This document shows, one piece after another, positions 2,539-44,972 of a DNA stretch of 47,861 bases. The stretch is from an uncultured Opitutia bacterium (lineage in GTDB: Bacteria > Verrucomicrobiota > Verrucomicrobiia > Opitutales > Opitutaceae). The stretch is taken from the NCBI GenBank assembly GCA_903820035.1, contig CAIJFT010000011.1:1-47861 (forward strand), read 5' to 3'. Numbering within the stretch: the stretch's first letter is position 1; each line of letters begins with the position of its first letter. The notes under the pieces are model-generated. The model made no database searches. It was not told the DNA's origin and worked only from the letters and a program-made list of their open reading frames with translations. The position numbers and the translations under genes are program-made.

Positions 2539-5500
2539 TTGCGGGCCGGAGCCGGTTTCGCACGCTGGCTGCGCTTGCTTTCCCGTTACCCTATTGCGCT
2601 CGGTCTGATGCTGCTCGCGGCTGCGCGGGTGGCGTCCGCTCCAGTTGATTTCAACCGCGAGGTGCGGCCCATTCTCTCGGATAAGTGTTACCACTGTCAC
2701 GGTCCGGACGAGAGCGGGCGCAAGGCCAAGTTACGCTTCGACACGAAGGAAGGCGCGTTGCGCGTGCACAACGATACGGTCGTCATCGTGCCGGGGAAGA
2801 GCGCCGAGAGTGAAATCATCTTCCGCGTCGCCAGCACTGATGCCGAGGAGGTGATGCCGCCGCCCGAGGCAAAACTCGGCCGGCTCACCGCTGCCGAGGT
2901 CGCGACCCTGAAGCGATGGATCGACGAGGGTGCGACCTTTCAATCGCACTGGTCGTTCGTGCCCCTCGCGCCGGTGGCGTTGCCCGCGGCGCAACCCGCG
3001 CTCCCCGCCGGGGTGCAGGTGCGCAACCCGATCGACCGCCTCGTCTTTTCCCGACTGGCTGAGCGCAAGCGAGCGCCGCAGCCCGAAGCCGATCGCGCCA
3101 CGCTCATCCGCCGCGTCACGTTTGATCTCACGGGCCTGCCGCCGACGCCGGCGGAGGTGAACGCGTTCATCGGCGAGGCGCACCCGCAGGCGTACGCGCG
3201 GCTGGTTGACCGGTTGCTCCACTCTCCGCGTTACGGTGAGCGCATGGCGGTCGACTGGCTCGATGTGGCACGTTACGCCGACAGCTACGGTTTTCAGGTG
3301 GATCGCGAGCGGGACATGTGGCCCTGGCGTGATTGGGTGATCAAGGCGTTCAACCAGAATTTGCCCTGGGATCAGTTTGTCACGTGGCAACTCGCGGGCG
3401 ATTTACTGCCGCAGGCCACGGACGAACAGGTGTTGGCGACGGCGTTTAACCGCCTCCACGCGCAGGAGAGTGAAGGCGGTTCGGTTGAAGAGGAGTATCG
3501 CGTCAACTATGTGAACGACCGCGTCACGACGTTCGGCACGGCGTTCCTCGGCCTGACGCTGGAGTGCTCGCGGTGCCACGACCATAAGTTCGATCCGGTC
3601 ACGCAGAAGGACTACTACCGTTTCTTCGCGTTCTTCGACGACATCGACGAGGCGGGGTTGTATTCGTACTTCACGCCGTCGATGCCGACGCCGACGATGG
3701 CGCTGCCGGATGCCGAGCGCAGCCGCAAGCAGGCGGCGGCGCTCGCGGCGGTCGCAAGCGCGGAGACTAAACTCCAAGTGCTGGCCGCGGAACGCGGTAC
3801 GGCCTTTGCGGCCTGGCGGCGGAGCCCTCCGGTCGCGCCGTTGAGGGTCGGCGCCGAGTTGGCCCGTTTCGATTTCGAACAGCGGGACGTCGCGCCGCCG
3901 CCGGTCGCCACCGCCAAGGGCAAGGCGAAGACGAAGGCGAAGGCGGCCCCGGCGCCCGAGGGTGCCGAGGCTTCGGAAAAGCCGGGGATGAGTCGGTTTG
4001 CGAGTGCGCTCGACGGCAAGCAGTCGGCGAGCACGTCCAAGGAAAACGAGTCGGTGCCCGGGCGTTCCGGTCTCGCGGTGAAGCTGACCGGCGATCACGC
4101 GATCACGACGACCCTCGGTAATTTTCACCGCCACGAACCCTTCGCGGTCGCGCTCTGGTTGCAAACGCCCGACGTGAAGGAGCGCGCCGTGGTCATGCAC
4201 CGTTCGCGCGCGTGGACGGATGCCGCCAGCCGCGGGTACGAGTTGTTGCTCGAGGAGGGTCGGCTCAAATGGTCCTTGATTCACTTCTGGCCGGGCGACG
4301 CGATTTCCGTGCGCGCGGTCGACCCGTTGCCGGTGCAGGCTTGGACGCACGTCACGGTGTCGAACGACGGCTCGGGCACCGCCGCGGGCCTGCGGATTTT
4401 TGTGAATGGGGAGCCGGTGCGTACGGAGGTGATCCGGGATCGCCTGACGAAGGACATCACGGGCGGCGGTGGTGACACCATTGCGCTGGGTGAACGTTTC
4501 CGTGACCGTGGTTTCAAGGGCGGGCTCGTCGACGACCTGCGGGTCTTCGGTCGCGCGTTGACCGAGCTCGAGGCGCGCGAGGTTTTCGCGCCGGGGGCGA
4601 TACAGGCCCTGGCGGCGAAGGCGGACGCGGCGCTGAGCCAAGCGGAACGCGCCGCGTTGTTCGGTTACTTTCTGGCGAATTACGATGACGCCTGGCGCGG
4701 GGCGATGCAGGCGTTGGGCGAGGCGCGGGCCGTGGTCACGAAGTTGGCCGACGAGGCGAAGGACATCATGGTCATGCGCGAGTTGGCGCAGCCGAAAACG
4801 GCTTACGTGTTGAAGCGCGGCGACTATTCACAGCGTGGTGAGGCGGTGGAGCCGGGCACGCCGGCGTCGCTTACGCCCTTTCCGGCGGGCCAACCGCGCA
4901 ACCGGCTCGGGCTGGCGCGATGGCTGACCGATCCGCAGCACCCGCTGCTGGCGCGGGTCACGGTGAATCGTTTTTGGCAGGCGGCGTTCGGACGCGGGCT
5001 GGTCAAGACGGTCGATGATCTCGGTAGCCAGGGCGAGCGCGCCGAGCATCCCGAGCTGCTCGACTGGCTGGCGAATGAGTTCATTCGCTCCGGTTGGGAT
5101 GTGAAGGCGCTGCTGCGCACGATCGTCACGTCCCATACCTACCGGCAGGGCAGCTTTGGTTCCGCAGAATTACACGCGGAAGATCCGGAAAATATTTGGC
5201 TGGCGCGCGGGCCCCGGCACCGGCTCCCGGCGGAGATGATCCGCGACAACGCCCTGGCCGTGAGCGGGCTGTTGGTGGAGAAGCTCGGCGGCGCGCCGGT
5301 CTACACTTACGATATTCCCGAGTCGTTCAAGCCGGCGCCGGCGGGGAAGGGTGAGGCGCTTTACCGCCGCAGCCTTTATACATTTTGGCGGCGCAACGGT
5401 CCGGCCCCGATGCTCGAGGCGTTCGACGTGCCGAAGCGCGTGGTGTGTGTGGCCAAGCGCGACACGACCAACACGCCGCTCCACGCCTTTGTGCTCCTCA

Positions 5501-14790: not shown

Positions 14791-15998
14791 CACTCGTAGC
14801 GCAGGGCGTCGATCGGATCGAGCTGCGCGGCCTTGCGGGCCGGGTAGTAGCCGAAGAACACGCCGATGACTGTACTCACGGCGACGGCGAGCAACACCGA
14901 GGTGGGTGAGATTAGCGTGGGCAACCCGAAGTAGGCTGAAGCGAACTCTGAGGCACCGATGCCGCAGAGGATGCCCAAGATACCTCCGAGGACGGTCAGG
15001 AGAATGGCCTCGATGAGGAACTGCAGCAGCACATCGCGATCGTGTGCCCCAATGGCGAGACGGATGCCGATCTCGCGGGTGCGCTCGGTGACGGAGACGA
15101 GCATGATATTCATGACGCCGATGCCGCCGACGACCAGCGAAACGACGGCGATGCCGCCGAGGAGCAAGGTCATCGTCTTGGAGGTCTCTGTCGCGGTGGC
15201 GGCAATTTCTTCCTGAGTGCGGACGGTGAAGTCCGGCTCGCGGCCCTTGCGGCGCTGATTGAGCAGGTCTTCGATGCGGCTCTTGACGACGTCGAGTTTG
15301 TCGGAGGTTTTACCCTGAACGAGGATCGAGGAGATATTGGAGCGGCGCGAGACGCGGCGCATGTGGGACGTGTACGGGATGATGACGACGTCGTCCTGAT
15401 CGGAGCCGAAGAGGCTGAAGCCCTTGACGTCGAGCACGCCGACCACCCGGAATGGCAAATTGCGGATGCGGAGGGTCTGACCGATCGGATCCTCGTTCGG
15501 GAAAAGTTGGTCGACGACGGTTTTGCCGATGACGGCGACCTTGGCGAGGGACTTGACGTCCTGATCGGTGAACATCGCGCCCTGGACGATGTTCCAGTTC
15601 TTGATGTACGGATAATCAGGCGACTCGCCGTTGATGTTGGTGCTCCAGTTCAGGCCGTTGGCGAGAACTTGGTTGCGGTCGCGCACTTCCGGGCTGACGC
15701 CGTCGATGTCCTCGACTTCGGCGGCGATCGCTTCTGCGTCTTCGACGGTTAAGGTCGGGGCCGACCCGAAGCCGCCCCGCGTGCCGCCCGAGCTGAAGCT
15801 GCCCGGATAAACCGTGATGATGTTTTGACCGAGCGCGGCGACCTGGGCTTCAACGCGGGCCTTGGCGCCGTTGCCCATGCTGACGATGGTGATCACCGCG
15901 CCGATGCCGATGATGATACCCAGCGCCGTGAGGATCGAGCGCATGGTGTTGCGGCGCAGAGCGCGGAGGGCGACGCGGAAGATGGTGGTGAAACGCAT
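14790..15998 (-). CDS. MacB-type ABC transporter permease (FtsX domain)
   Basis: The 402-residue protein has the MacB layout: N-terminal membrane helix (RSILTALGIIIGIGAVITIVSM), a ~220-residue periplasmic MacB_PCD domain, and three C-terminal helices in an FtsX domain (LLLGGIAVVSLVVGGIGVMNIM, then VLGGILGILCGIGAS, then LLAVAVSTVIGVFFGYYPARKA). The loop VTERTREIGIRLAIGAHDRDV is the FtsX coupling signature. Unlike E. coli MacB, the ATPase is a separate protein encoded 25 bases upstream. With the adaptor gene at 16838 it forms a tripartite efflux system; no TolC-like gene is in the window. Confidence 0.93.
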   Translation of the reverse strand: MRFTTIFRVALRALRRNTMRSILTALGIIIGIGAVITIVSMGNGAKARVEAQVAALGQNIITVYPGSFSSGGTRGGFGSAPTLTVEDAEAIAAEVEDIDGVSPEVRDRNQVLANGLNWSTNINGESPDYPYIKNWNIVQGAMFTDQDVKSLAKVAVIGKTVVDQLFPNEDPIGQTLRIRNLPFRVVGVLDVKGFSLFGSDQDDVVIIPYTSHMRRVSRRSNISSILVQGKTSDKLDVVKSRIEDLLNQRRKGREPDFTVRTQEEIAATATETSKTMTLLLGGIAVVSLVVGGIGVMNIMLVSVTERTREIGIRLAIGAHDRDVLLQFLIEAILLTVLGGILGILCGIGASEFASAYFGLPTLISPTSVLLAVAVSTVIGVFFGYYPARKAAQLDPIDALRYE

Positions 15999-27839: not shown

Positions 27840-28958
27840 TCAACGTTCCCAGGGGGAATCGGGATGGCAGAGGTAGCCGGCGAGCAGATCGGCGCGCCAA
27901 TCCCGTTGGACGAGCTCAAGGTCGTGCACGATGCGACGGATCGCGAACCAATCCAAGGCGGGGATTTCTTCGGCGGGGAGACGGATGCGGACACCTCCCG
28001 TCGTGGTGACGATTTCGGGCCTGAACGTGGCCTCGGCGCCGGGAGCCCACGCGAGGATCACGCGGGCTTCCTCGGCGCCCTCGCGGACCAGTCGCTTCGC
28101 GAGCTGCCGTGCACGCAGGGCGCCACACTTGTCGACCTTGTGGGGGTCCTTGCCGGCGAGGGCGCCGCCGCCGATCGGCACCGACGGACCGTAGTGGTCG
28201 ACGACGAGCTTCTTACCGGAGAGGCCGTTGTCGCCGTGCGGCCCGCCGAGGACGAAGTCGCCGGCGCCGTTGAGCGTGAGGACTGCGGTGGAGAAGGTGG
28301 TGGCGATGCCGGCGAGCCCCGACACCTCGAGGTCCCGCAAGATGCCGGCGACCAGGGGCACGAGTTGGCGGTGCTGGGTTTCGCTGGTGAGGCCGGGCCG
28401 GTGCAGGACGCTTAACACCAACCGCCGCCACTGGATGCGCCGCGTGCGGGCGTCGTGATCGAGGACGACCAGAATCTTGAAGTCGGGGCCATAGGTCTCG
28501 GCCAGCCCGGGATCGGTGCGCAACGTGGCGGCGAGCCGGCGGCCCAACTCGCCGGCGACCCAGTGCGCGGGCGGGAGGAAGTTCGTGGTGGCGTCGCCGC
28601 AGGCATAACCAATCACGATGTTCTGGTCGTCGGAAAAGGGACGGATGTCGGACTCGGCGGCGGGCAACTCCTCCTCGCAGAGGTCGGTCGTCAGCGTGAG
28701 CGTCGCGGGATCGGGACCCCAGGCACCGCCGTAACCGGCGTTCCGGTACACGTCACGGACAACGCCCGCGACGTCGACCCGGGTGGCCCCGGCGGCGATG
28801 CGGCCGTCGACGAAGACGTGGTGGCGGTGGACGGCGACCTCGACCCCGACGAGGGCGTCGGGTCGCTCGCGGACGGCGGCGGTGACGAGGCCCTCGGCGA
28901 TGGCGTCGGCGAGGCGGTCGGGATGGCCGGGGGAAACGTATTCGGCGTAGTCGGTCAT
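27840..28958 (-). CDS. Divergent S-adenosylmethionine synthetase (MetK-like)
   Basis: The ATG at 28958 overlaps the stop of the VWA gene (ATGA) and gives 372 residues, slightly shorter than classical MetK (~384). Conserved sites are SPGHPDRLAD (His12, Asp14; Arg15 replaces the usual Lys), SDDQNIVIGYA (109-119, the GDQG loop altered to DDQN), PDFK (158-161), GGPHGDNGLSGKKLVVDHYG (238-257) and GGGALAGKDPHKVDK (263-277, both lysines and the Asp kept). The methionine-contacting Glu of classical MetK (Glu55 in E. coli, in GEITT) aligns with Arg53 in DGRIAAG. Nucleotide and phosphate sites look intact while the amino-acid site is changed. As last gene of the MoxR/VWA operon, it probably has a special substrate or role rather than being the housekeeping enzyme. 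Confidence 0.88.
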   Translation of the reverse strand: MTDYAEYVSPGHPDRLADAIAEGLVTAAVRERPDALVGVEVAVHRHHVFVDGRIAAGATRVDVAGVVRDVYRNAGYGGAWGPDPATLTLTTDLCEEELPAAESDIRPFSDDQNIVIGYACGDATTNFLPPAHWVAGELGRRLAATLRTDPGLAETYGPDFKILVVLDHDARTRRIQWRRLVLSVLHRPGLTSETQHRQLVPLVAGILRDLEVSGLAGIATTFSTAVLTLNGAGDFVLGGPHGDNGLSGKKLVVDHYGPSVPIGGGALAGKDPHKVDKCGALRARQLAKRLVREGAEEARVILAWAPGAEATFRPEIVTTTGGVRIRLPAEEIPALDWFAIRRIVHDLELVQRDWRADLLAGYLCHPDSPWER

Positions 28959-30337
28959 AAGGACGGGAGCTTAATGGTTTCGTGCACCCAGCGGCCGAGG
29001 TCGGTCTCGTAGTGCGGGGCGGTGAGGGCGGCGACGACGCGCGTGCGCCCGAGGGCGTTCCGGAGTTGCCGGTTGGCGGGGCCGACGTAGCCGTCGGTCG
29101 CGAGCAGGGCCACGCGGGGCCGGACGCGCGGCGGAAGGCCGGCGAGGTGCCGGAGGACGGCGTTGATGTCGGTGCCGCTCGTGTTGGCGAAGGTGGCGGC
29201 AGTCAGGTTCCGGCCCTTGAGTTCGGAGACGACGGTCGAGAAGGCGAAGATCTTCAGGAGGCCACGGCGAAACGGTCCGCGGCAGACCGCGGTGAGGTAG
29301 GGTAGCGCGGTCTCCATCGAGCCGCTGACATCGAGGTAGAGATGGACGACCGGCGCGGGCAGGCGGCGGGGCTTGGTTTCGGAGAATGGCGTGCGGTAGA
29401 GCAACGGAGCGTGACCGAAGACGTCGCGGAAGGCCGACGCGCGGCGATCGCGGCTGTCGGGGACGACGGTCTCCCGCGATTGTTCGCGGGTGGCGCGCTG
29501 GGAGCGGAAGACGGTGGCGCCGTGCGCCGGCGAAAGGCCGCAGCGCCGGAGGACGGCGGCGAAGGCGCGTTGAAACTCCGCGGCGGGCGAGAGTTCCTCG
29601 CGCAGCCAGTGCGAGCGCGGCTCGCGACCGTCGTCGCGACCCCGGATTCGAAACGGCGGTGGGGGCCAGCCCTCGACGATGCGCCGGATGACCTGCGTGA
29701 GCGTCGGGTCGTCGGGTTTTTCGGCGCCGTGCGTGCCCAGGAGTGTGAAGTTAACGTGGCGCAGGTCCAGCGACGCGCGGAGCAGTTCGTAGAGGTCGAG
29801 GTAGGTGATCGAGTCGTTGCCGGAGCCGTACAGCAGGCGGATCGCGCGGGCCTCGGTCTCCGGGAGGTTTTTCAACGCGGGCTCGAAATTGTCGGGCCAG
29901 CCCGGCGGCGGGCGCAGCAGGCGCTCGGGGAATTTCTGGTAATCGTAGAATCGCGTGAAGAGGCCGGTGCCGATGCTGCGGCCGACGGAGCGGGCGAGCA
30001 TGGCGTTGATGACCGCGTCGAAGACCAGATTGTCGAGCGGCGTGAGACGCGGGAACAGCCGCGTGTGGCCGAGGATGACGTGGTGCAGTTCGTGCAAAAT
30101 GAGGAGGAAGAGGTCGGCGTCGGCCTGGCAGTGTTCGGCGACGAAGTCGCGGTTGAGCAACAGCCGCGGCGTGGTGCGGCACTCCACGCAGGCGGTGGCG
30201 GTGTCGGTGCTGAACTCGATGTCGAGCAGGCCGAAGAGTTTTTCCATCTGGTACGAGGCGGCAGGCAGCACGTTGAAGATGCGTTCGCGGATAGCGGCGG
30301 CGGCGCGGGAGCGCGGGCGATGGGCGAGGAGGTTCAC
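28955..30337 (-). CDS. VWA-like DUF2201 protein with HExxH region
   Basis: The GTG at 30337 overlaps the upstream stop (GTGA) and gives 460 residues. The N-terminal half is metallopeptidase-like, with LLILHELHHVILGHTRLF at about 78-95 (HExxH at 82-86 plus His91). The C-terminal VWA-like domain begins VVHLYLDVSGSME, with the MIDAS residues DxSxS at 336-340, a Thr in TSGTDINAVL and the Asp in LLATDGYVG, so metal binding looks intact. Proteins of this type are regularly encoded next to MoxR AAA+ ATPases, and here the ATPase gene is two genes upstream. Whether the HExxH site is an active protease or only structural cannot be told. Confidence 0.88.
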   Translation of the reverse strand: MNLLAHRPRSRAAAAIRERIFNVLPAASYQMEKLFGLLDIEFSTDTATACVECRTTPRLLLNRDFVAEHCQADADLFLLILHELHHVILGHTRLFPRLTPLDNLVFDAVINAMLARSVGRSIGTGLFTRFYDYQKFPERLLRPPPGWPDNFEPALKNLPETEARAIRLLYGSGNDSITYLDLYELLRASLDLRHVNFTLLGTHGAEKPDDPTLTQVIRRIVEGWPPPPFRIRGRDDGREPRSHWLREELSPAAEFQRAFAAVLRRCGLSPAHGATVFRSQRATREQSRETVVPDSRDRRASAFRDVFGHAPLLYRTPFSETKPRRLPAPVVHLYLDVSGSMETALPYLTAVCRGPFRRGLLKIFAFSTVVSELKGRNLTAATFANTSGTDINAVLRHLAGLPPRVRPRVALLATDGYVGPANRQLRNALGRTRVVAALTAPHYETDLGRWVHETIKLPSL

Positions 30338-30852
30338 GGGGAGGGAAAGAGCGGTTCGTCGAAGGCGATGGGTTGGGCGAGCAGACGATCCCAGGAGAGA
30401 TCCGGGGCGCGATCGGGCAGGTAGACGGTGCCGTAGCAGCGGGCGAGGACGCCGGCGCAACGGCGGGGATCCCGGCTAAAGTGTGCCGGGGACCAAGAGA
30501 CCGGCGGTGGCTCGGGCCAGCCCGCGGTCGCCTGCACCCGTCGACCCGTGTGTCCGGTAGTGGGACGCCAACCGAGCAGAAAGTACGCGTTCACCGTGGG
30601 GAAGATCGGTGGGCCGATTTTGCGGAAGAGATCGGCGGGACGTTTGAAAACCTCGGTGATCGCCCGGCTCAGTTGCGAAGATCCGTCGCAGACGTTGCAA
30701 GGAAACCGCTGCCCCATGCCGACCCAGGGCACGACGCCGTCCAGAATCAGCGTGTAAACCAAGGAATAGATCGGCGTCGCCGGAGTGAGCATCGCGGTGG
30801 CGGGCCAATAGCGCGTTGGCGCCGAAGCGCTGGGCGGAACGGACGGTGTCAT
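30334..30852 (-). CDS. Unknown protein, paralogue B of a tandem pair
   Basis: The ATG at 30852 overlaps the stop of the preceding paralogue (ATGA); the product has 172 residues. No signal peptide, membrane segment or known motif was found. It shares a core with the neighbouring gene: IYSLVYTLILDGVVP near 28, FKRPADLFRKIG near 69, FLLGWR near 91, and a nearly identical C-terminus from RDPRRCAGVLARC to FDEPLFPSP (37 of 46 positions equal). Cysteines at 52 and 55 (CNVC) and at 132 and 139 could bind metal. The family is not recognised; the operon ties it to the MoxR and VWA proteins. Confidence 0.8.
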   Translation of the reverse strand: MTPSVPPSASAPTRYWPATAMLTPATPIYSLVYTLILDGVVPWVGMGQRFPCNVCDGSSQLSRAITEVFKRPADLFRKIGPPIFPTVNAYFLLGWRPTTGHTGRRVQATAGWPEPPPVSWSPAHFSRDPRRCAGVLARCYGTVYLPDRAPDLSWDRLLAQPIAFDEPLFPSP

Positions 30853-31343
30853 GGAGTCGGATACAGCGGTTCGTCGAAGGCGATGGGCTCGGCCAGCAGC
30901 CGAGCCCACGAAAAGTCCGGGGCCCGCGCGGGCAGGTAGAGGGTGCCGAAGCAGCGGGCCAGGACGCCGGCGCACCGGCGGGCGTCGCGGCAGACGGTGG
31001 CAGGTCGCCAGCCGTCGGGAGGACGCGGGCGATCGTCCGCCGCCACGGTGTGATAGGTTTGCGCCCGCCAACCGAGGAGAAAGTGGGCGTCGATGGCGGG
31101 GCAGTCCGGCGCGCCGATCCGGCGAAACAGGTCTTCGGGGCGCTTGAATTTCCGGCGGACATTTTTGACGTAGCCGCAGAGGCCGATGGAGCGCGGGTCG
31201 TCGAGTACATCCAGTCCAGGCGCGCTCGTGGCGCCGGGCACGATGCCGTCTGCGATCAACACATACAGCAGCGAATACACCGTGGCGCCGGGCGTCACGA
31301 GGTTGCCGCCGAGCGTGATCCGCGTGCGCGGCGGGGCGCTCAT
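30849..31343 (-). CDS. Unknown protein, paralogue A of a tandem pair
   Basis: The ATG at 31343 lies 14 bases after the MoxR gene stop and gives 164 residues. The sequence is soluble-looking: VYSLLYVLIADGIVP at 22-36, a Cys in GLCGYVKNV, FKRPEDLFRRIGAPDCPAIDAHFLLGWR at 66-93 and C-terminal RDARRCAGVLARCFGTLYLP. The last 46 residues match the following gene at 37 positions, so the pair arose by tandem duplication, with the N-terminal parts diverged. No known domain was recognised. A substrate adaptor or partner of the ATPase/VWA pair is a guess from gene order only. Confidence 0.8.
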   Translation of the reverse strand: MSAPPRTRITLGGNLVTPGATVYSLLYVLIADGIVPGATSAPGLDVLDDPRSIGLCGYVKNVRRKFKRPEDLFRRIGAPDCPAIDAHFLLGWRAQTYHTVAADDRPRPPDGWRPATVCRDARRCAGVLARCFGTLYLPARAPDFSWARLLAEPIAFDEPLYPTP

Positions 31344-31357
31344 GTTGTGGAGAAGCC

Positions 31358-32860
31358 TCACGGGGCGGGTGACGTGGCGGGCTCGAGGCCGAACTTCTCC
31401 CAGAGGGCGAAGAAACGGTCGCGGAGGTGGCGGGCTTCGAGGGCAGTGAAGCCGTCGGGGAGAAACGCGTTGAGCAGGTTGCGCGCGTAGCGGTCGCGGA
31501 GGCATTCGCCGAGTTCGCTGCACAGGGCGGCGACTTCGCGGCAGTTTGTGAGCTGGCGGCCATAGACCTCATAGGTGCTCGTGGCGGGCGTCAGGACCCG
31601 GGCGAGTTGGGTGCCGAGCGTTTCCGCGGCGGTGGCGGCGATGCGCTTGCCGTTGCGCAGGCGGAGGTAGAGGACGAGGGAGAGGGCGGCGCGCTCCTCG
31701 TCGGTCGGTTGCGTGGCAACGGCCTCAAGGACGAGACTCGAGAGTTCCGCTTCACCGAGCGGAAAGTCGACGCGGCTCGCGGCGAGCACGCGGTCCACCG
31801 GGTCGGTGAGGTGCAGCAGCTCCTTCCACGGATCGTCGTCGGCGAGCCGCGAGAGGCTCCAGGCCTGGCGGTGCAGGGCGAATAAGGCGCCGCGGTCGAC
31901 GGGGCCGGCGGCGAGGCCGGGGTAGCCGTGCGCGAGGGCGAGGAAGACCGAGGACTCCCAGTCGGGTCGGGCGCCGGGGCCAGCGAGGGTGGTCCGCGCG
32001 GCGTGGACGCCAAGGGCGGTGCGGAAGAGCATCGAGATGCGGCGGCTCGAGAGCCGGGTGCCCGCGCCGCGCAGTTGGGCTTCGAGCGCGATGAAGTACG
32101 GGGCGAGGTCGGGTGGGCGGGTGCAGTAACGCTCGAAGACGGTCTTGGTGCGCGCGACGAGGGCCGGAACATCGACGGGGAATTCGTGACGGCCGCGGAA
32201 CTGGTCGGCGAGCAGGTCGCGTTTCTCGTTGTCGGCAAGGTCGCACCAATCGGGCACCTCGATGAGGAACGCGAAGCGGTCCGCGAGCGCGGGGTCGAGC
32301 GGTTCGGCGCCGAGGTACGTTTCGGTGGCGTCGGGATCGTCCGTCGGTGCCGGGTTCATGGCGGCCCAGCGGTAGCGGAGTTTTTCGAGCGCCACGCCCT
32401 GCACGCGCCGCTCGTGGATGATGGAGAACAGCTTGTTCTGGAGGTCGGGCCGCGTGCGGTTGAGTTCGTCGATGAAGACCACCTCGGCGTCCCAGATCGC
32501 GGTCGGCGTGGTGATGTAGCGCAGGGCGGTGTGGGCGGCGTCGGGGACGGGGATGCCGACGAGGTCGTCGTAGTTCAGCAGCGACGCGTTGTAGAACCGG
32601 TAGACGAGCCCGAGGGACTGGGCGAGCCGCTCGAGGAGAAAGCTCTTGGCGGTGCCGTGCTTGCCGATGAGCAGCAGCGGGTCGCCGGTGGCGAGGGCGG
32701 CGAGCAGGACCGGTTCGAGCTTGTGCCAGCCGAGGAGGCCGAGCGGGCGGGTGAGGAGTGAAGGGGCGGCGGCCGGAGTGGCGGTGGGGCCGTTGGGTTC
32801 GGGAGCGTCAGCCGGCGGTATCGGAACGGCTGTGACGCGGGGGCGGATTGGTTTTTTCAT
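31358..32860 (-). CDS. MoxR-type AAA+ ATPase
   Basis: The ATG at 32860 gives 500 residues. After a Pro/Ala-rich N-terminus come Walker A LIGKHGTAKS (64-73), NYDDLVGIPVP, Walker B AEVVFIDELNR (125-135), HERRVQG, the sensor-1 region RWAAMNPAP, and PALADRFAFLIEVPDW with a likely arginine finger. This is the MoxR/RavA group, which works with VWA proteins in ATP-driven remodelling or metal insertion. The C-terminal ~280 residues are helical and less conserved, longer than in minimal MoxR. It is 8 bases downstream of a small arm-domain-like gene and upstream of two unknown paralogues, the VWA gene and the MetK-like gene. Confidence 0.92.
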   Translation of the reverse strand: MKKPIRPRVTAVPIPPADAPEPNGPTATPAAAPSLLTRPLGLLGWHKLEPVLLAALATGDPLLLIGKHGTAKSFLLERLAQSLGLVYRFYNASLLNYDDLVGIPVPDAAHTALRYITTPTAIWDAEVVFIDELNRTRPDLQNKLFSIIHERRVQGVALEKLRYRWAAMNPAPTDDPDATETYLGAEPLDPALADRFAFLIEVPDWCDLADNEKRDLLADQFRGRHEFPVDVPALVARTKTVFERYCTRPPDLAPYFIALEAQLRGAGTRLSSRRISMLFRTALGVHAARTTLAGPGARPDWESSVFLALAHGYPGLAAGPVDRGALFALHRQAWSLSRLADDDPWKELLHLTDPVDRVLAASRVDFPLGEAELSSLVLEAVATQPTDEERAALSLVLYLRLRNGKRIAATAAETLGTQLARVLTPATSTYEVYGRQLTNCREVAALCSELGECLRDRYARNLLNAFLPDGFTALEARHLRDRFFALWEKFGLEPATSPAP

Positions 32861-32868
32861 CGCGTGGT

Positions 32869-33129
32869 TCAGGCGGCGCAGCTCCAGGTGCAGGCGGGCG
32901 CTCCGGCGGTGAGAGCGCGATGCAGGCGCAGGTGCTCGAGGAAGACGTCGCGCCGCTCCTGGGCGACGGCGAGGTCCTTGGTGCCGAGGGAGGCGGTGAT
33001 CCGGCGCTCGGCTTTCAGCCAGGCGGCGTCGCGGACGCAGTAGCGCAGGAACCACGTGCCGTGGTTGTTGAACAGGTGGTGGCGGTCGCCACCACGGAAA
33101 CGCAAGGCGGGTTCAGACGATGGATTCAT
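32869..33129 (-). CDS. Small protein resembling integrase arm-type DNA-binding domain
   Basis: This 86-residue frame opens the operon. Its core, LFNNHGTWFLRYCVRD and then RRITASLGTKDLAVAQERRDVFLEHLR, follows the pattern of the N-terminal arm-binding segment of tyrosine recombinases (a strand with W-x-L-R-Y, then S-L-G-T-x-D-x-x-x-A-x-x-x-R-D). The catalytic recombinase domain is absent, with no sign of it downstream. It may be a stand-alone DNA-binding protein regulating the operon or the remnant of an integrase. The stop lies 8 bases before the MoxR start, so co-transcription is likely. Confidence 0.65.
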   Translation of the reverse strand: MNPSSEPALRFRGGDRHHLFNNHGTWFLRYCVRDAAWLKAERRITASLGTKDLAVAQERRDVFLEHLRLHRALTAGAPACTWSCAA

Positions 33130-33577: not shown

Positions 33578-33685
33578 CAATTCCGACGTTCCTTTTGTTG
33601 CGACTGCGGCCGGCGACCGAATCGCGCTCCCGGTGTGGCCGGGTTGGCCCACGATGTTGCAAGTTTCGCCCTGACCCCGTGGACC

Positions 33686-44192: not shown

Positions 44193-44972
44193 ATGCGTGA
44201 ACCAACGAATCGCTCGCGGGCCGGGCTCGAGCCGAGTGCGCCTCCGCCTGGCCTGGGTCTGCCGATCTATACGTTGCGGCTCGGGGCCGTGGCCGGGGCG
44301 CGGCCTGCGGCGGCGGCGGTCGCGGCGTTGGTCGGCGCCGCGGTGCCGTCGTTCTCGCTGACGCCCTGCGAGGGTTTCTTTCGCGGCGCAGCGGATCCGG
44401 GCTGGGCGATTATGGTGGCGCATGCGGACCACGGGGTGATCGCGCGCTTGGCGGAGGACCTGCGCTGTCACTTTGTCCAAGAGGGTGTGGGCATCGAAGC
44501 CCATGGTCGCTACCTGCGCTGTCGCGCCGACCACGGTCCGGCGTTGCTCGCGTCCGAACTGTGGGGGCTGGCATCGGGTTTTTTTCCGGCTTACGCCCGG
44601 ACTTGCTTCGCCGTAGCGTCAGTTCCGGACAAATGGCCGGACTGCTTCGCGATTATCACGGCTTGGGCGACGACGGGAGAGCGGTGGACGGCCGATCGCA
44701 ATCGCATGGCGGACGAGCGGCTCCGGCAGTTGCTGCTCGGTCGTAACCTGCCCCATGCGCGGATTACCGGTGCATCGCCGGATGGCCAACACGCGGAACC
44801 CGGTTGGTGGGTGGAGACGGACCGCGAGGATGCGGTCCAAATCGGCCGGGCGTTTCTGCAGGACGCGGTGTATTGGGTCGAGGCGGACGCGTTGAGTGTG
44901 CACAGTTGCCGCGATCACCGGAGCGCTCCGGTGGGGCCGTTTGCGGAGCGGGTCCGCACCGTGCCGGCGTGA
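44193..44972 (+). CDS. DUF3293 domain protein with extra N-terminal domain
   Basis: The 259-residue protein has DUF3293 in its C-terminal half: FAIITAWATTGERW near 151, NRMADERLRQLLL, then GASPDGQHAEPGWWVETDREDAVQIGRAFLQDAVYWVEADAL. The first ~135 residues are an additional part (DPGWAIMVAHADHGVIARLAEDLRCHFVQEGVGIEAHGRYLRCRAD near 68-112) that looks like a separate compact domain. DUF3293 has no known function. The ATG at 44193 is the first in frame. It stands upstream of a small secreted protein gene. Confidence 0.8.
   Translation: MREPTNRSRAGLEPSAPPPGLGLPIYTLRLGAVAGARPAAAAVAALVGAAVPSFSLTPCEGFFRGAADPGWAIMVAHADHGVIARLAEDLRCHFVQEGVGIEAHGRYLRCRADHGPALLASELWGLASGFFPAYARTCFAVASVPDKWPDCFAIITAWATTGERWTADRNRMADERLRQLLLGRNLPHARITGASPDGQHAEPGWWVETDREDAVQIGRAFLQDAVYWVEADALSVHSCRDHRSAPVGPFAERVRTVPA

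Follow-up and report, generated by a model that had tools for sequence, protein, structure and literature searches.

A 47,861-nucleotide stretch from an uncultured Opitutia bacterium (contig CAIJFT010000011.1; hereafter the window, meaning this whole stretch) carries an operon in which a MoxR-type AAA+ ATPase, a protein that we call U, an HExxH metallopeptidase-like protein with a VWA domain and MetK2, a divergent homologue of methionine adenosyltransferase, follow a small gene that we call ARM and an S-adenosylmethionine (SAM) riboswitch. We found that the core of this operon, MoxR-U-VWA, recurs in many phyla and is preceded there by SAM riboswitches of two classes, and for this reason the core very probably serves SAM or methionine homeostasis. 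To a more specific proposal we give roughly even chances, namely that the operon is a module for SAM shortage, consisting of an induced remodelling or proteolysis machine with a client in SAM metabolism and of a MetK2 with an altered product. An earlier note on this DNA had described the six genes as one operon; their place, list and order were confirmed, all six lying on the minus strand (Table 1) and being joined by gaps of 8 and 14 nt followed by three 4-nt overlaps. The riboswitch lies just outside the interval that the note had covered (27840-33129) and was overlooked there.

Table 1. Features of the operon and its leader in the window, and the second ARM locus of the same genome.
Feature	Position	Strand	Description
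SAM-I/IV-type riboswitch aptamer	33304-33162	minus	Rfam RF01725 sub-threshold; R1 model; SAM-contact letters
Hairpin ending at ARM start codon, probable expression platform	33161-33130	minus	fold -21.9 kcal/mol (33170-33121)
ARM	33129-32869	minus	86 aa; first gene
MoxR-type AAA+ ATPase	32860-31358	minus	500 aa; AAA_5 1.7e-13, bpMoxR 28.2 bits (cut-off 27); MoxR alignment
U copy A (unknown A)	31343-30849	minus	164 aa; predicted-structure model, family alignment
U copy B (unknown B)	30852-30334	minus	172 aa; tandem duplicate, window only
HExxH metallopeptidase-like + VWA protein	30337-28955	minus	460 aa, GTG start; HELHH, DVSGSM (DxSGS motif)
MetK2 (divergent methionine-adenosyltransferase homologue)	28958-27840	minus	372 aa; three Pfam SAM-synthetase domains
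SAM-I/IV aptamer, second ARM (1714-1971), metY-like gene	G000:C124, L124:1502-3128		window's own genome

The arrangement of these genes is not a matter of chance, because the gene order recurs in many phyla. We scanned one genome per species with the MoxR alignment, kept the best 80 of 278 relatives, and ran five component profiles on the open reading frames of 89 sequences, comprising these 80 loci, the window and eight stretches from phylum and order searches. The recurring unit is MoxR AAA+, U and HExxH/VWA, usually with MetK2 next: the order MoxR-U-VWA-MetK2 was found, by record-title labels, in Verrucomicrobiota, Kiritimatiellota/Lentisphaerota, Planctomycetota, Bacillota, Pseudomonadota, Acidobacteriota and others, and MetK2 was present in 41 of the 60 loci with a long enough stretch after VWA (61 if L035 is included, which was set aside as its sole VWA belongs to a neighbouring MoxR/VWA pair). 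Hence, the combination of MoxR, VWA and a divergent SAM synthetase that the note had singled out is a conserved unit. Loci lacking MetK2 fall mostly in an Anaerolineae branch, and on the MoxR tree, built without L077, L080, L062, L094 and L024 (short) and without the second copies L017-L021, the MetK2 label needs six changes, with MetK2 on both sides. The doubling of U proved to be a local matter. While the window does hold two U copies, 51% identical over 170 positions, the U profile gave 53 matches in 52 loci (four being second copies of the same place), and only the window has two. As no other locus has two matches, the doubled U is peculiar to the window, a local duplicate and not a trait of the system; identity to the lone U of L028 is nearly the same for both (49% and 48%).

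SAM riboswitches usually mark genes of methionine and SAM metabolism. Comparison of leaders revealed strong conservation upstream of ARM, and an Rfam scan of 43 loci, the window counted, placed a SAM aptamer at or above the Rfam cut-off before the operon in 19 of them. SAM-I/IV (RF01725) reached the cut-off in L029 (45.6 bits), L041, L045, L047, L058, L089, L095, L100 and L102, and SAM-I (RF00162) in L053, L055, L057, L071, L079, L090, L097, L089, L099, L100, L072 and L104, with L089 and L100 carrying both; in L095, two short frames separate the aptamer from MoxR. We also built a covariance-type leader model, R1, from 21 ARM-type leaders. In its alignment 92.1% of cells are paired, compared to 36.5-46.3% in a control with the partners slid, and helix 2 shows both-sided changes in all five pairs, so the leaders display covariation. 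R1 scored the window leader, which is one of its 21 training rows, at 78.9 bits, and it also finds aptamers ahead of operons that lack ARM. In 76 loci the sequence before MoxR is 700 nt or longer, 20 of them from Anaerolineae and 56 others, of which 55 were testable since L028 is too short before ARM. Among these 55 non-Anaerolineae loci, 51 have an aptamer by R1 (E<=0.01) or by the Rfam cut-off; these comprise 18 leaders used to train R1 and 33 others, and some of the 51 are near-identical neighbours. The four loci without a passing aptamer are L101 (R1 E 0.065), L103 (a SAM-alpha match of 27.9 bits, under the cut-off of 36), L092, where neither R1 nor Rfam found one, and L093, covered by R1 alone and without a match. 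Operons lacking MetK2 (L047, L057, L071 and L099) have an aptamer above the Rfam cut-off as well, indicating that SAM control goes with the MoxR-U-VWA core.

The aptamers retain most positions that contact SAM, in what we take to be SAM-I numbering: among the 21 leaders, C44, A46, C47, U57, G58 and U7 are present in all, G11 and A87 in 20, U88 in 18 and A45 in 17. The nucleotide aligned with A45 is altered even though its partner U57 is kept, to U in L034 and L036 and to G in L037 and L040, which possibly reflects a change of ligand in these four. A terminator (a hairpin plus T-run) follows the aptamer in 15 of the 35 leaders examined. The window leader has no such hairpin-plus-T-run terminator after its aptamer; here the P1 strand CGCATC (33300-33295) is the same as the strand preceding the ATG, and either could pair with GATGCG, such that the hairpin at the start codon could switch translation. 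About 50-75 nt before the aptamer, 19 of 25 ARM loci carry TATGACAC (by reading). It was found in the leaders of L022, L025, L029-L041, L045, L067, L084 and L094, is conserved across phyla and adjoins a promoter-like stretch, and is perhaps a regulator site of a SAM regulon. L025 has a second SAM-I/IV riboswitch on its other strand (14847-14971, minus; Rfam 43.2 bits, R1 84.9), preceded by TATGACAC and near a gene of unknown product and a gene for a small VWA protein, and a SAM-I/IV riboswitch of 47.2 bits (L106:2816-2936, minus) lies at the canonical metK locus of genome G602.

MetK2 shares with canonical MetK (TIGR01034) the three-domain architecture and the catalytic, ribose-side and most phosphate-side residues, and differs from it in methionine-pocket residues that are replaced or deleted. 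It exceeds the Pfam cut-offs for PF00438, PF02772 and PF02773, whereas with the NCBIfam model TIGR01034 it scores 164.2 bits and does not reach the equivalog cut-off of 309.4; the window's own genome has a separate canonical metK (558 bits, versus 165 for MetK2), and identity to four canonical enzymes is 28-32%. We compared 39 MetK2 rows with E. coli MetK, three other canonical enzymes and four sequences of a canonical-like MetK ('MetK1') that stands between ARM and MoxR in L022, L023, L026 and L027, leaving aside the fragments of L054, L067, L077 and L085 and the second copies L017, L018 and L021. All MetK2 rows form one clade (SH-aLRT 100), with L102 on a long branch. H14, D16, E42, D118, D163, K165, D238, K245, K265 and D271 are kept in 39 of 39, which includes the catalytic and polyphosphate-side set (H14, D16, D118, K165, K245, K265 and D271), R244 being the exception; K269, F230 and S186 are kept in 38. 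On the other side of the pocket, Glu55 has become Arg in 38 rows and Gly in one, Gln98 is Gln in none, Ile102 lies within a stretch deleted in all 39, and Ile302 is Pro in all 39, while MetK1 retains these four residues in 4 of 4. Glu55, Gln98 and Ile102 contact methionine in MetK (PMC3853416, PMC1282579), and E. coli I303, which corresponds to Ile302 when the initial Met is counted, is reported to touch the methyl group of SAM (PMC6152220). As most of the methionine pocket is lost and the catalytic residues are kept, MetK2 most likely retained the ATP chemistry and changed its acceptor.

A change of R229 to Asp or Glu was considered as a sign of a changed base and rejected, since the adenine contact is a main-chain carbonyl (PMC3853416) and MetK1 changes R229 too. 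Two observations concern neighbouring MetK and methionine genes: the MetK1 of L027 (6849-7952) has Asn at the catalytic His14 in a genome where a further canonical metK is represented by just a fragment, and in L040, the same place as L018, a MetA-like gene that is below the equivalog cut-offs starts 67 nt after MetK2.

Neither copy of U matched a Pfam, NCBIfam or PADLOC model at E<=1. The family has a conserved N-terminal start, MS-x-PP-R-[ST], and a conserved C-terminal block, with M1, P4, P5 and R140 at 90% or more in the alignment, and the structure model of copy A (pLDDT 85.8, pTM 0.81) gave no PDB match at E<=0.001 in a fold search (best E 3.3). Proteins interposed between MoxR and VWA in Chloroflexi are probably relatives of U, to which they are tied by profile comparison alone (hhalign 90% one way and 81% the other). 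The window and L017 share 38% identity in U, 40% in ARM, 71% in MoxR, 58% in VWA and 68% in MetK2, and the corresponding values against L018 are 25%, 51%, 54%, 43% and 55%; by these identities U is the fastest-diverging component. In the VWA profile, whose 83 rows include second copies as well as a handful of other MoxR/VWA pairs, HExxH is present in 79 rows, the other four being partial frames, an N..D..IN stretch follows it in 77 of those 79, and DxSGS occurs in 71 of 83. The window protein matches VWA_CoxE below the cut-off (4.3e-5). The note had labelled it DUF2201; no DUF2201 model matched it at E<=1, while its relative in L066 does pass DUF2201_N (23.6 bits, cut-off 23.2). The system resembles the MoxR/DUF2201 pairs, which we take to be those named COG0714-COG3864, in that MoxR adjoins an HExxH plus VWA protein, and differs from them by the addition of U and MetK2.

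Starting from the observed gene content, gene order, riboswitch, residue pattern and patchy distribution, we propose the following mechanism. When SAM is plentiful, the leader RNA would bind SAM and keep the operon off, as the SAM-class aptamers and the terminators of some relatives suggest. When SAM falls, the cell would make U, the MoxR AAA+ ring and a VWA partner that carries its own HExxH peptidase domain, with U acting as a third subunit, adaptor or client of the putative complex. The MoxR/U/VWA machine would spend ATP to remodel proteins or, if the HExxH domain is an active peptidase, to clip them, and its likeliest clients would be enzymes of methionine and SAM metabolism. MetK2 would be an adenosyltransferase that kept the ATP-cleaving half and rebuilt the acceptor pocket, probably coupling adenosine to something other than free methionine, and ARM, as the first product, probably assists the SAM regulon by binding DNA. 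In its fullest form, which we advance tentatively and hold at somewhat below even chances, the operon would encode a previously undescribed SAM-starvation machine, in which an ATP-driven MoxR/VWA-metallopeptidase with a third subunit of new fold is put under SAM-riboswitch control together with a neofunctionalised MetK that makes a non-SAM adenosylated product from a non-methionine acceptor.

Several results weigh against this proposal. With RF01725 the window aptamer scores 32.1 bits (E 0.0032 for 671 nt), short of the gathering cut-off of 41.1, and altogether 24 of the 43 scanned loci, the window included, are under the Rfam cut-off (among others L025, L026, L027, L030, L036, L037, L038, L040, L042, L043, L046, L048 and L075); three of the 24 are Anaerolineae and L028 is without a leader. 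No aptamer was found in Anaerolineae, neither by R1 in 20 loci nor by Rfam in three (L066, L074 and L081), and because Anaerolineae keep MoxR-U-VWA without an aptamer or a detected MetK2, part of what the core does lies outside SAM control. In MetK2, R244, another active-site residue of MetK, is Lys in 38 of 39 rows and Arg in one. Finally, archaeal methionine adenosyltransferases bind methionine through other residues (PMC3853416), so the loss of Glu55 and Gln98 is no proof of a new substrate.

MoxR-VWA pairs act as activase or maturation pairs for neighbouring enzymes. The first alternative, which we regard as rather unlikely, builds on this and holds that MetK2 is still a SAM synthetase, one that binds methionine differently and is tuned to low methionine or to less product inhibition, with MoxR-VWA as its activase or maturation pair. 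Control by a SAM riboswitch fits such a reserve enzyme, the methionine contacts Lys269 (38 of 39) and Asp238 (39 of 39) are kept, archaeal enzymes make SAM without counterparts of Glu55 and Gln98 (PMC3853416), and the residue that is now Pro, E. coli Ile303, is one that has been replaced to relieve product inhibition (PMC6152220). Yet the change of Glu55 to Arg amounts to a charge reversal at the amino-group site in 38 of 39 rows, the core is under SAM control also where MetK2 is missing, and a canonical metK above the TIGR01034 cut-off exists outside the operon in 9 of 11 genomes (G600 has a fragment only and G603 none).

ARM turned out to have a distribution of its own. The note had listed it as an operon member, and it is indeed the first gene here, but it is not specific to the MoxR system. 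ARM matches Pfam DUF6538 below the cut-off (E 0.0016) and resembles the N-terminal arm domain of integrases; its matches to the DUF6538/Arm-DNA-bind models are sub-threshold. Its structure model has low confidence (pLDDT 67.7), with a strand-strand-strand-helix order, and the fold search with this model was uninformative, giving no PDB match at E<=0.001. Among the 89 profile-searched sequences, 27 matched ARM, two being second copies. A search of the window's own genome with RF01725 listed one other aptamer, followed by a second ARM and a metY-like gene of the O-acetylhomoserine sulfhydrylase family; the window's own aptamer was not listed, so others may be missed. Of the 120 family genomes searched, 63 carry ARM, and 20 of the 21 ARM loci that were read (the 20 best of the family search and the own-genome one) have an aptamer by R1, the sole locus without one, L136, beginning at a contig end. 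The family loci, L127-L146, show the SAM-I/IV aptamer in 19 of 20. MetK1 follows ARM in L127 and L128, which coincide, or nearly so, with the R1 rows L026 and L023, while most other loci of the 21 have no obvious same-strand methionine gene in the 3-kb stretch. Given 63 of 120 family genomes with ARM versus 3 of 27 genus genomes with the operon VWA, we dropped ARM as a component of the MoxR system. It goes with the unit headed by the SAM-I/IV riboswitch and is not confined to the MoxR system, and it may provide a second layer of SAM or methionine control. ARM as the protein binding TATGACAC was also rejected, since TATGACAC is found before the ARM-less aptamers of L042 and L044 and before the second riboswitch of L025. 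Many ARM C-termini in the family alignment end in Ala-Ala or similar, and these ends may be degron-like or a by-product of the start signals of the next gene.

The operon is accessory and patchily distributed, not a housekeeping locus shared by all relatives, an outcome for which the note had allowed. In the genus, 3 of 27 genomes, counting the window's own, encode its VWA protein, as do 7 of the 387 genomes sampled from the phylum. In an equally large phylum sample, MetK2 was matched in 4 of 387 genomes at E<=1e-50, a threshold that would miss the most distant MetK2. These four (G000, G557, G417 and G510) also gave the strongest VWA matches, and the three genomes with weaker ones (G164, G188 and G462) contain variant systems. 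A search seeded with U matched 3 of 273 genomes of an order sample. The match in G272 was judged to be a chance match in unrelated genes, and both real carriers have U beside MoxR and VWA. The note had asked whether U occurs without these partners; in the two carriers they occur together, and the remaining U matches come from loci fetched by MoxR and so are no test of U without MoxR. In G625, the nearest genome with the right-hand neighbour, the shared sequence reaches only window position 33632, a break consistent with an accessory insert; in this empty-site comparison the left flank of the operon was not found in G625. The operon has a GC content of 67-71%, compared to 58-66% in the right-hand and 62-67% in the left flank, which is weakly compatible with acquisition.

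This patchiness, together with the low conservation of U (38% between the window and L017), would fit a second alternative towards which the note had leaned, a conflict system in which a MoxR-VWA machine with a fast-evolving sensor subunit is armed when an invader depletes SAM. The combination of MoxR, VWA-peptidase and a third component also resembles the MoxR-vWA ternary systems (PMC7159879, PMC12839542), where MoxR AAA+ and its VWA co-chaperone likewise share one operon with a third, distinct protein (VMAP, iSTAND, FtsH or beta-propeller; PMC7159879). Here, in contrast, the third protein is U, without a match to VMAP, iSTAND, FtsH or propeller, an HExxH domain stands N-terminal to VWA, MetK2 and a SAM riboswitch are present, and no defence gene recurs in the flanks. 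The latter point was examined by selecting 217 flank proteins from 35 loci, of which 109, hand-picked and mostly nearest the core, were scanned with PADLOC and Pfam, the results covering the 25 commonest families of 88 and 119, respectively. Although 88 PADLOC families had one match or more among the 109, with single matches including Dnd, restriction-modification, WYL and other models, no PADLOC family matched more than two, and the note's suggestion of clustering in defence islands found no backing; as the matches are scattered and none is recurrent, a defence island was rejected. Against PADLOC the six operon proteins gave only weak matches, owed to the AAA domain, and the Pfam scan of these six showed no effector domain. 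The window neighbours that were scanned are ordinary: a 7TM histidine kinase, planctomycete-type PSD/DUF1552 proteins, a sulfatase, a chemotaxis receptor and efflux genes. VWA had no match in the plasmid set, and MoxR had a single weak match in the phage set, to a phage record. Moreover, SAM riboswitches before the operon across many phyla point to SAM and methionine metabolism rather than conflict. We hence consider a conflict system improbable, and nothing in this analysis favours the form in which defence is armed by SAM depletion.

Least probable of the three alternatives is a metal-handling module, in which MoxR-VWA would insert or mobilise the metal of an enzyme that makes or salvages methionine and HExxH would be a metal site without peptidase function: MoxR-VWA pairs are known in metal insertion (chelatase, CoxDE/NorQD-type pairs), the VWA family matches CoxE (the window protein below the cut-off) and SAM control would fit, but no metal transporter, corrin or metalloenzyme gene is among the recurrent flank families listed (those of the MetK2 loci and the listed part of a longer set), and the altered MetK2 would be left unexplained.

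Few flank families recur in the MetK2 loci, chiefly an ADP-ribosylglycohydrolase (five loci) and a LexA-like gene (four). The ADP-ribosylglycohydrolase lies within ~3.3 kb upstream in L040, L055, L058, L092 and L093 (two of them near-identical), and reading of the sequences placed the LexA-like gene near the operon in L025, L026, L037 and L052, in L037 at 9 nt from MetK2, as well as a large protein resembling a combined restriction-modification enzyme after the MetK2-less operon of L099 (11788-15297). A DUF3293 protein is encoded at 44193-44969 of the window, a family to which 2 of the 109 flank proteins scanned in related loci also belong. On the IMG/VR contig L118, MoxR-U-VWA is present (3264-4316) with a VWA frame that stops early beside opposite-strand phage-tail-like genes, possibly a prophage junction or a chimera.

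The proposed SAM-shortage module appears to be new. We found no open-licence PubMed Central paper containing both 'SAM riboswitch' and 'MoxR', and the note's remark that the combination was not a described system agrees with the open-licence PubMed Central literature, subscription papers being outside that search. The riboswitches themselves share with the known SAM-I/IV and SAM-I classes (RF01725 and RF00162) the aptamer core, the leader position and, in some leaders, the terminator, and differ from them in the set of target genes. Their occurrence, in two classes, before MoxR-U-VWA ties an uncharacterised chaperone or protease pair to SAM homeostasis and gives it an expected inducer. MetK2, in turn, would be a natural methionine adenosyltransferase in which the chemistry side is kept and the methionine side replaced, and whose acceptor could lead to a new adenosylated metabolite.

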